A stretch of DNA of 44,664 nt from an uncultured Gemmiger sp. GTDB taxonomy: Bacteria; Bacillota; Clostridia; Oscillospirales; Ruminococcaceae. The position numbers and the translations under genes are program-made. Below the pieces are notes generated by a model. It was not told the origin of the DNA and made no database searches. It worked only from the letters and a program-made list of their open reading frames with translations. This document shows positions 43,461 through 44,570 of this stretch, in pieces (position 1 is the first letter of the stretch; the number at the start of each line of letters is the position of its first letter). The stretch covers positions 1 through 44,664 of the forward strand of contig CALWNO010000020.1 of assembly GCA_944382785.1 (NCBI GenBank), written 5' to 3'.

Positions 43461-43742
43461 TCAGGCTGCCCGGCCGCCCCGAACCACCCGCAGCGTGACG
43501 GTGCGGCGGGCAGATGTACGGCGCACATGGTGTGCGGGAACACGCTGCCGACGAGGTGTGGGCTTTTTCTCGGCCAGCCCACAGAGAATATTCATGCCGA
43601 TAAGATCGGCCAAACCCAGCAGCAAGGCCACGGGCAGAAAGAGGGTGCCTTCCGCAGCGCCGCAAATGATGGCCAGCAGCAGAAAGCCCAGCACCGACAT
43701 CAGAAACCGACATACCTGCTGTTTGATCGTCTGAAAGTTCAT
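43461..43742 (-). CDS. Small membrane protein with strongly basic C-terminal tail
   Basis: A 93-residue protein I do not recognise. Two hydrophobic segments (about 12-30 and 33-54) are followed by a tail of about 35 residues with a dozen Arg/Lys and several His (KKPTPRRQRV, HHVRRTSARRTVTLRVVRGGR). The basic tail should face the cytoplasm. GGAGGT precedes the ATG. It is divergent from the XRE-S24 repressor, and its near-consensus promoter is overlaid by two of the three operator copies. This suggests it is induced when the repressor is cleaved or displaced. Confidence 0.72.
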   Translation of the reverse strand: MNFQTIKQQVCRFLMSVLGFLLLAIICGAAEGTLFLPVALLLGLADLIGMNILCGLAEKKPTPRRQRVPAHHVRRTSARRTVTLRVVRGGRAA

Positions 43743-43771
43743 GATCCATACCTCCGCAAACTGTATTGCTC

Positions 43772-43786
43772 ACAACTGTTGGTTGT
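43772..43786. promoter_or_regulatory. Operator copy 1 (ACAAC-N5-GTTGT)
   Basis: A perfect inverted repeat, ACAAC-TGTTG-GTTGT, in the leader of the small membrane protein gene just after its expected start of transcription. It is the same motif as at 43806-43820. Confidence 0.75.
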
Positions 43787-43797
43787 TTTATGACTTC

Positions 43798-43826
43798 ATG
43801 ATAATACAACAAACGGTTGTTGTCAA
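43798..43826 (-). promoter_or_regulatory. Promoter of the small membrane protein gene
   Basis: On the minus strand TTGACA (43826-43821), a 17-base spacer and TATCAT (43803-43798). The spacer contains operator copy 2 in full. Confidence 0.75.
43806..43820. promoter_or_regulatory. Operator copy 2 (ACAAC-N5-GTTGT)
   Basis: A perfect inverted repeat, ACAAC-AAACG-GTTGT, between the -35 and -10 of the minus-strand promoter. A bound protein should block polymerase. Its centre is 34 bases from that of copy 1. Confidence 0.78.
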
Positions 43827-43870
43827 CACAAAAAACAACTTTTAATGGGGAAAATTTCCAATTTTTTCTC

Positions 43871-43899
43871 TTTACAGAAACTACCAAAGGTTGTATAAT
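43871..43899 (+). promoter_or_regulatory. Promoter of the XRE-S24 repressor gene
   Basis: TTTACA (43871-43876), a 17-base spacer and TATAAT (43894-43899). Operator copy 3 covers the spacer and the first base of the -10. Confidence 0.78.
43880..43894. promoter_or_regulatory. Operator copy 3 (ACTAC-N5-GTTGT)
   Basis: Differs by one base from the perfect motif: ACTAC-CAAAG-GTTGT. Its position inside the repressor's own promoter implies autoregulation, perhaps with lower affinity. Confidence 0.68.
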
Positions 43900-43949
43900 G
43901 AATAAAACAAAGAATTCCCGGCATCCCCCTGCCGGAAAGGAGCTTGCAG

Positions 43950-44570
43950 ATGTTTGCAGAACGCTTGAAGATGGCCCGCAAGGCCAAGAAGTACAGCCAG
44001 GCCGAAGTGTCCCGTCTGCTCGGGGTGACTCAGCAGGCGGTGGGCAAGTGGGAGACCGGGCGCTCCACCCCGGACCCCCAGACGGTGGCCCGCTTGGCGG
44101 AGATCCTGGACACCACCGCCGACGCTCTGCTGGGGCTGCACAATGCGGCCGCCACCATCAGCCAGGATGTGATGGCCCGCTATGAGCAGTGTCTGGTCCC
44201 GGTGGTCGGCACGGTGCGTGCCGGCTATGGCGCCCTGGCTTTTGAAGAGGACTACGGCAAAGAATATGCCAGCGTCAAGGACCCGCAGAACTACTTTTAT
44301 CTGGTGGTGAAGGGGGACAGCATGGAACCCCGCATTTCAGATGGAGACCTGGCCCTGGTGCGCCGGCAGTCCACGTTGGAAAATGGGGACCTGGGGGTCA
44401 TCGTCTTTGGCGTGGACGGAGAAGGCACCCTGAAAAAGTACATTCAGCGCGGCAATTCGGTGGTGCTGCATCCCTTCAATCCAGCGTACGATGAGGTGGT
44501 CATCAAGGGGGAGGACCTGGATCATCTGTACATTGCCGGCAAAGTGGTGGAAACCAAAGCCAAGTGGTAA
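43950..44570 (+). CDS. XRE-family repressor with LexA-like S24 autopeptidase domain
   Basis: A 206-residue regulator. Residues 1-65 are an XRE/Cro-type helix-turn-helix (SQAEVSRLLGVTQQAVGKWETGRSTPD). Residues 83-205 are an S24 domain with a LexA-like Ala91-Gly92 cleavage site, nucleophile Ser124 in KGDSMEP and general base Lys162 in GTLKKY (38 residues later, as in LexA). It should therefore self-cleave on a RecA-type or other signal. The ATG at 43950 follows AAAGGAG. Canonical Firmicute LexA has a winged helix instead of XRE, so this is a LexA analogue rather than LexA. The 94 bases after it show no gene or clear terminator. Confidence 0.9.
   Translation: MFAERLKMARKAKKYSQAEVSRLLGVTQQAVGKWETGRSTPDPQTVARLAEILDTTADALLGLHNAAATISQDVMARYEQCLVPVVGTVRAGYGALAFEEDYGKEYASVKDPQNYFYLVVKGDSMEPRISDGDLALVRRQSTLENGDLGVIVFGVDGEGTLKKYIQRGNSVVLHPFNPAYDEVVIKGEDLDHLYIAGKVVETKAKW

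Follow-up and report, generated by a model that had tools for sequence, protein, structure and literature searches.

A CI-type XRE-S24 repressor that probably serves as the LexA of Gemmiger and Faecalibacterium shares its operator with phage repressors

In Gemmiger and Faecalibacterium the role of LexA is very probably played by a CI-type repressor, a reading that takes in its regulon, its RecA-stimulated cleavage, a phage origin and the replacement of canonical LexA. The gene lies near the end of a 44,664-nucleotide stretch of DNA (the window; contig C20) from an uncultured Gemmiger genome of 2.68 Mb that is 93.6% complete. Its product had originally been predicted to be a LexA-like, self-cleaving repressor that switches a divergent gene for a small membrane protein; judged from its sequence, it looks like the SOS master regulator itself. 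The features of the region are as follows.

43461..43742, minus strand: small membrane-hairpin protein of 93 aa, ending in -GRAA (translation; HMM relatives in 72 of 79 named loci)
43772..43786, no strand: operator 1, exact ACAAC-N5-GTTGT, in the leader of the divergent gene
43798..43826, minus strand: promoter-like sequence of the divergent gene, TTGACA - 17 bp - TATCAT (by eye)
43806..43820, no strand: operator 2, exact ACAAC-N5-GTTGT, in the spacer of the divergent promoter (position by eye)
43871..43899, plus strand: promoter-like sequence of the repressor gene, TTTACA - 17 bp - TATAAT (by eye)
43880..43894, no strand: operator 3 (ACTAC, one mismatch), within the repressor promoter spacer and abutting the -10
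43950..44570, plus strand: XRE-S24 repressor of 206 aa, HTH_3 and Peptidase_S24 (Pfam), with A91-G92, S124 and K162

The best start of the repressor gene is the ATG at 43950, preceded by AAAGGAG at 43936-43942. HTH_3 and other XRE models matched the protein (an XRE/CI-type helix-turn-helix), PF00717 matched with 87 bits, and the Pfam scan gave no match to PF01726, the winged-helix DNA-binding domain of LexA. The LexA equivalog model TIGR00498 reached 76 bits against a cut-off of 110.95, covering residues 79-202 only, and the phage repressor family PHROG_4 matched residues 4-204 with an E-value of 1.1e-44. The residues required for self-cleavage had been claimed to be complete, and this was confirmed: A91-G92, S124 and K162 (206-aa numbering) are all present and did not vary among 25 orthologs. 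The same repressor occurs with 100% identity in an uncultured Gemmiger, and that of Gemmiger formicilis strain An812 is 98% identical; the neighbours scanned (cutC and a pair of repair genes) are non-phage genes. The same genome contains a second XRE-S24 gene (G000:C32:3144-3728, L012), 34% identical to the window repressor, at a locus with zero ACAAC-N5-GTTGT sites within one mismatch.

The intergenic region, 207 bp long and not 208 as first counted, does hold the three inverted repeats originally described, two exact copies of ACAAC-N5-GTTGT and one with a single mismatch, and shuffled sequences support a non-chance origin. At least two exact copies were obtained in 1 of 20,000 shuffles of the 207-bp stretch and four matches within one mismatch in none of them, and 0 of 100 whole-window shuffles contained at least four such matches. 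A further one-mismatch match at 43809 is merely a shifted reading of the second site and was rejected as an extra one. On the minus strand, the divergent promoter is formed by TTGACA (43826-43821) and TATCAT (43803-43798), with site 2 within the 17-bp spacer, and site 1 lies by eye immediately 3' of this -10, across the likely transcript start. The repressor promoter is formed by TTTACA (43871-43876) and TATAAT (43894-43899), also with a site (site 3) within its 17-bp spacer. The claimed location of the operators was accurate for the promoter spacer and the leader, but site 3, said to cover the repressor -10, abuts this element and has by eye one base in common with it. At the named loci described below, the repressor-proximal site abuts a TATAAT-like hexamer in 58 of 78 cases, and the mismatch of site 3 looks conserved across relatives. 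The imperfection of this -10-proximal site in 54 of the 58 loci, against 71 perfect copies among 90 upstream sites, fits a graded affinity.

A near full-length ortholog with 57-100% identity was found in 25 of 148 family genomes, a set defined by at least 57% identity that leaves out XRE-S24 relatives at 47% or less. Operators within one mismatch lie upstream of 23 of the 25 genes, the exceptions being L024 and L042. Eighty named loci from Gemmiger, Subdoligranulum, Faecalibacterium, Fournierella, Ruthenibacterium, Anaerofilum, Pygmaiobacter and unclassified relatives were also compared, in a set that overlaps the 148 family genomes, so that both counts are not independent; here operators within one mismatch were detected at most 400 bp upstream of the repressor in 79 of 80 loci, with exact copies in 68. 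Spacings of 34 and 73-74 bp were seen most often. The code used at the repressor's own locus and at those of its relatives is ACAAC-N5-GTTGT, unlike the GAAC-N4-GTTC box, as had been proposed. At one locus (L171, Gemmiger sp. An194) a transposase-like ORF (by eye) separates the repressor from the usual operators; L024 (G025:C4) resembles it, with an exact site in G025 about 1.7 kb upstream. In Candidatus Gemmiger stercoravium (L183), the stretch 54-369 bp upstream of the repressor contains five operators rather than three, the two additional exact copies being about 104 bp apart, like a duplicated stretch.

The original prediction also described a complete, self-contained switch. This proved too narrow: in the source genome recA, uvrB, rmuC and a topoisomerase B gene have this operator in front of them too, as does recA in many relatives. 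The genome scan that had been suggested for ACAAC-N5-GTTGT was run and yielded 11 exact sites, two of them in the window, against 4 for the reversed pattern. Four exact sites lie about 50-120 bp before recA, uvrB, rmuC (named by eye from its sequence; NCBIfam gave no match for it) and a gyrB/parE-like topoisomerase B gene. Another (G000:C3:74113-74127; L244:1114-1128) is located 64 bp before a gene for a 150-aa protein matching sigma-70 region 4, and prophage-like genes at this locus are possibly under the control of the host SOS repressor. A terminase-like ORF (by eye) comes after the sigma-70 region 4 gene. The copy at G000:C1:21368-21382 (L245:1569-1583) is found inside a near-consensus minus-strand promoter, which drives about 70 nt without a convincing ORF and then a hairpin and a T-run (by eye); this transcript is a candidate small RNA under SOS control. 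No known RNA family matched it at the Rfam gathering threshold. Three exact sites apparently inside genes (L002, L004, L015) were taken as chance. A one-mismatch site touching TATAAT was found 56 bp before a rarA-like gene; genome-wide there are 58 one-mismatch sites, fewer than the 130 of the reversed-pattern control, and most of them are taken as chance. Across genomes, exact and reversed sites numbered 84 and 68 in the 25 with an ortholog, and 119 and 201 in the 123 others, a modest enrichment (odds ratio 2.1, p 2.3e-4) that is missing in some single genomes (7 vs 7 in G054, 2 vs 17 in G018). The case for the regulon depends on where the sites are located rather than on how many there are.

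The upstream regions of recA were scored with a weight matrix made solely from the repressor's own operators. Sites, exact or with one mismatch, were detected in 14 of 26 genomes of the lineage, a number that includes three without a repressor found and two with both types of repressor, compared to 0 of 15 other family members (Fisher p 3.8e-4); in 12 of the 26, recA is without a site. A GAAC-N4-GTTC-like box (one mismatch) precedes recA in 9 of the 15 others and in 4 of 25 lineage genomes scored. In G024 and G047 recA was not found. Among 21 named genomes, 18 have an exact recA site, including all nine Faecalibacterium (F. prausnitzii among them), all seven Gemmiger, Fournierella and Pygmaiobacter, and no site was found in Anaerofilum or two Ruminococcaceae genomes. 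As a general member, uvrB was rejected from the scheme of the regulon, having a site in 5 of 23 genomes, a count in which the upstream stretch of L116 is possibly misplaced because the contig is cut there. Translesion polymerases were rejected as well: no convincing site appeared in 30 loci when the 500 bp preceding the PF00817 match were scanned, a scan that would miss sites farther up an operon; matrix scores were at most 9.3, and there was a single one-mismatch match at -403 (score 5.7). This sets the network apart from those described.

Canonical LexA was not found in the source genome in searches with PF01726 and PF00717. The PF01726 match there is MarR-like by eye, and the other PF00717 matches are the second XRE-S24 protein and a signal peptidase (by eye). 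Strong PF01726 matches (E < 1e-6) were present in 2 of 25 ortholog genomes and in 83 of the 123 others (Fisher p 2.6e-8). Thus, 23 of the 25 ortholog genomes had no strong LexA match, though 9 of these 23 contain weaker PF01726 matches, of which the one in the source genome alone was read, and the cut-off loses some true LexA proteins, such as that of G112 (E 6.5e-6, beside an S24 match). None of the 21 named genomes has a strong match; four have weak ones, the best at 6.0e-5. Neither a strong canonical LexA nor an XRE-S24 ortholog was found in 40 of the 148 family genomes, some of which may have other S24 repressors or assembly gaps; one of them, G010, has an XRE-S24 gene at 41% identity.

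In a RecA tree of 61 genomes made with a quick method, 22 genomes without a strong LexA match form a group (SH-aLRT 86), 19 of them with the XRE-S24 ortholog and three with neither repressor. The latter (G046, G057 and G058) belong to the lineage, and two of them have recA sites. The two dual genomes, G073 and G064, are placed outside this group, among LexA-bearing genomes. Their XRE-S24 genes are accompanied by operators and the divergent hairpin gene, and no ACAAC-N5-GTTGT-type recA site and no repair gene within 1.5 kb downstream of the repressor were found in them. Given this gene content, they may be intermediates of the replacement of LexA; acquisition of their XRE-S24 genes by horizontal transfer is a possible alternative. 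In the repressor tree, where branches are long and support is weak (53/5 for the core group), the repressors of the dual genomes are not firmly placed.

The divergent gene, which is followed by cutC, has two operators at its promoter and leader. Its product showed no Pfam or PHROG match, no NCBIfam match above cut-off and no LysM domain. An HMM seeded with it found relatives in 72 of 79 usable named loci, L125 being excluded from this count with 120 bp upstream; the gene was not found in L171 or in six Faecalibacterium loci (L152-L156, L160). At these six, from F. prausnitzii, F. hattorii and relatives, a single one-mismatch operator is left. The protein evolves fast: its relatives are 17-70% identical to the window protein, mostly below 40% (alignment of 26). 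Their C-terminal ends, by contrast, are alanine-rich, with AA in 52, VA in 10, SA in 4, IA in 2 and AS in 4 of 72, compared to only 18% alanine at residues -30 to -4; the two copies of the dual genomes have different ends, AA and LY. AA-type tails act as protease signals. By eye, the protein has two hydrophobic segments and a basic C-terminus, which suggests a hairpin topology with both termini inside. Control by the repressor is suggested by operator position and conservation; the original prediction is well supported in silico as to damage control by a LexA-like, self-cleaving repressor with a code of its own.

The sosA gene of Staphylococcus is divergent from lexA and encodes a 77-aa membrane inhibitor of division, whose level is limited by its last ten residues (PMC6851548). 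As described there, YneA and SosA are likewise small membrane proteins divergent from an SOS repressor, with a C-terminus of special importance; the hairpin protein has no sequence match to them and, by eye, forms a hairpin with basic ends in place of one membrane helix. By analogy it is perhaps a short-lived division inhibitor like YneA and SosA, which we propose with moderate confidence.

Downstream of the repressor, a second association was detected. Of the 77 named loci whose downstream flank spans at least 600 bp, 67 contain a radical-SAM/UDG-type 'DNA modification/repair' gene (TIGR03916), which we take to correspond to COG4277, near the repressor. It lies mostly within 400 bp, on the downstream side in 65 and on the other side in two (L199, L202). 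Its partner TIGR03915 is present in 62 loci. The gaps between the repressor and the repair gene showed no operators (best score 8.9), which makes co-transcription possible. The TIGR03916 gene was not found beside 10 canonical LexA genes, five weaker XRE-S24 relatives or six phage repressors. In the window itself the contig ends 94 bp past the repressor, so that the pair lies beyond view there. In Bacteroidetes, Verrucomicrobia and Alphaproteobacteria, a UDG repair pair is reported to be under SOS control (PMC8565304).

Phage repressors provided a parallel. A recognition helix of the form V-S-(Q/P)-Q-(A/T)-V-(G/A)-K-W-E was found in 5 of 79 relatives on viral contigs (L336, L337, L339, L353 and L365), and all five have at least two copies of the operator within 250 bp upstream. 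Among the other 74, a count made without L369 and including 18 that matched from query residue 12 or later, so that the stretch scanned is maybe not the promoter, one has an operator, a single one-mismatch copy (Fisher p 2.7e-7). As controls, the reversed motif occurred within one mismatch in 3 of the 79 upstream stretches, and 1% of shuffled stretches contained a match at this cut-off. The five CI-type proteins have the domain layout, recognition helix and operator of the host repressor, with several operators just upstream, and differ from it in lying on viral contigs without an adjacent repair pair and in sequence, full-length phage repressors being 34-39% identical to the host protein (L336-L339, 34-38%). 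By eye, an integrase-like ORF lies near the repressor in both L337 and L339, and L337 also has, in divergent orientation, a Cro-like ORF whose helix is similar. Phage 434, whose repressor has Gln-Gln in its recognition helix and binds an ACAA...TTGT operator, is a distant relative, with a 30% full-length match to the host repressor. Helix and operator thus occur together in nature, pointing to a common origin of the host system with phage switches; the direction of transfer between phage and host would be a further inference.

Regulators of this type are already known. The SOS regulators of Bacteroidetes are CI-like S24 repressors, and HdiR governs a small damage network in Streptococcaceae (PMC8565304); in Francisella, the response to damage involves a phage repressor (PMC13148647). 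As described, the non-canonical LexA of Bacteroidetes shares with the Gemmiger repressor a CI-like N-terminal domain joined to S24, the Ala-Gly bond, the Ser-Lys pair and a chromosomal location, operators located at recA, a topoisomerase gene and the regulator's own gene, a network that includes a UDG-type repair pair, and the absence of canonical LexA (PMC8565304). It belongs to another phylum and uses the motifs CTAA-N5-TTAG and GGA-N5-TCC (PMC8565304) instead of ACAAC-N5-GTTGT; when the two systems are compared by description, that of Gemmiger stands apart by its lack of a polymerase site, its divergent hairpin gene and its LexA-keeping sister genera. HdiR is likewise a Gram-positive XRE-S24 damage regulator of phage origin in the absence of LexA, described as controlling itself and umuC-type genes, and recA in S. 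thermophilus (PMC8565304), whereas the Gemmiger repressor has sites at recA and other repair genes and no polymerase site. Once cleaved, HdiR is processed further by Clp. Canonical LexA of Clostridia has in common with it the role, the targets lexA, recA and uvrB and the S24 domain, but combines the PF01726 winged helix with GAAC-N4-GTTC/T (PMC4234289), in place of an XRE helix and ACAAC-N5-GTTGT. No paper on SOS control in Faecalibacterium or Gemmiger was found in the open-access literature, and the words Faecalibacterium and Clostridi- are absent from the main texts of PMC8565304 and PMC13148647. Apparently new are the lineage and its motif, the cassette, the putative intermediates and the sharing of an operator with phages.

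The observations in hand are the cleavage residues, the operators and the genes behind them, the missing strong LexA match and the phage parallel; binding, cleavage, induction, the function of the hairpin protein and the direction of evolution we infer from them. In the mechanism that we propose, the repressor, presumably as a dimer, would bind ACAAC-N5-GTTGT through its XRE helix-turn-helix and would repress its own gene, the divergent hairpin gene and recA, and in the source genome also uvrB, rmuC and the topoisomerase B gene. Upon DNA damage, the RecA filament would stimulate self-cleavage at A91-G92, by which the regulon would be induced. The weaker operator at the repressor promoter and the stronger ones at the hairpin gene suggest early resynthesis of the repressor and later production of the hairpin protein, which may delay cell division and be cleared via its conserved C-terminal tail. 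The repressor would have a common origin with the lysogeny switch of temperate phages, with the operator retained, and canonical LexA would have been replaced in the ancestor of the lineage, possibly via a stage with both repressors. The fuller version of this history, in which the Faecalibacterium-Gemmiger lineage captured the lysogeny repressor of a temperate phage along with its operator code and came to use it instead of LexA via a dual stage that is still visible, with cross-regulation between host and phage, is tentative, and we regard it as nearly an even call.

Several other explanations were weighed against this mechanism. In the first, the locus is a local switch of two genes, for instance a domesticated module of prophage immunity, that acts on itself and the membrane protein only, with all other sites due to chance. 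This would agree with the chance level of one-mismatch sites in the genome (58 vs 130 reversed), with exact sites inside genes such as L002 and L004 and with the recA genes of the dual genomes, which are without a site. It is very improbable in view of the exact recA sites in 18 of 21 named genomes, against 0 of 15 outsiders within one mismatch, and of the strong anticorrelation of the repressor with canonical LexA. An SOS regulator inactivated in another way, whether through an antirepressor or, as reported for DdrO, through a separate metalloprotease, also seems improbable. DdrO/PprI is an example of other XRE-type damage regulators that are described to work in this manner, and self-cleavage of the Gemmiger protein is a prediction from its sequence; nevertheless, the scissile bond and the catalytic pair are invariant in the 25 orthologs, and the neighbours scanned in four loci (cutC, transport, phosphatase, acetyltransferase and repair genes) included no metalloprotease match.

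As for the hairpin protein, a role other than division inhibition, as a holin-like or phage-derived membrane protein or as a membrane-stress factor, is a real possibility, if on the doubtful side. Its two hydrophobic segments and basic C-terminus (by eye) are unlike the single-pass SosA with its C-terminus outside, its sequence is highly divergent, and the gene is missing beside the repressor in the Faecalibacterium loci L152-L156 and L160. Against these points, it is a small membrane protein divergent from an SOS repressor, as in sosA and yneA, and its C-terminal end is its best-kept part, as the last residues of SosA are those described to control stability (PMC6851548). The operator identity could in turn have arisen otherwise, phages having taken the repressor from hosts or both having converged via a similar helix, which we consider rather unlikely. 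The low identity between host and full-length phage repressors (34-39%), the long branches and weak support of the repressor tree and the 30% full-length match of phage 434, with its own ACAA...TTGT operator, would be compatible with this; against it, the host repressor matches the phage family PHROG_4 at full length, and L337 looks by eye like a normal lysogeny switch with a Cro-like partner.

PMC8565304 proposes that captured phage repressors can give rise to SOS repressors and that, after the loss of LexA, its role can pass to a second repressor. With phages that use the same helix and operator, related genera that keep LexA and two dual genomes, both ideas become testable in this lineage. 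Faecalibacterium and Gemmiger are common gut bacteria, and the operator code allows a prediction of which prophages respond to the host regulator, besides indicating a new, SOS-controlled family of small membrane proteins. Because some present-day phages pair this recognition helix with this operator, the switches of host and phage may act on each other; if so, the host repressor would silence such phages, and induction of the host SOS response would trigger them. Finally, a repressor 70.5% identical to that of the window is encoded by MT839076.1 (L426), a 4.6-kb human faecal record that lacks annotation and is filed under 'Bacteriophage sp.'; the record may be bacterial DNA.
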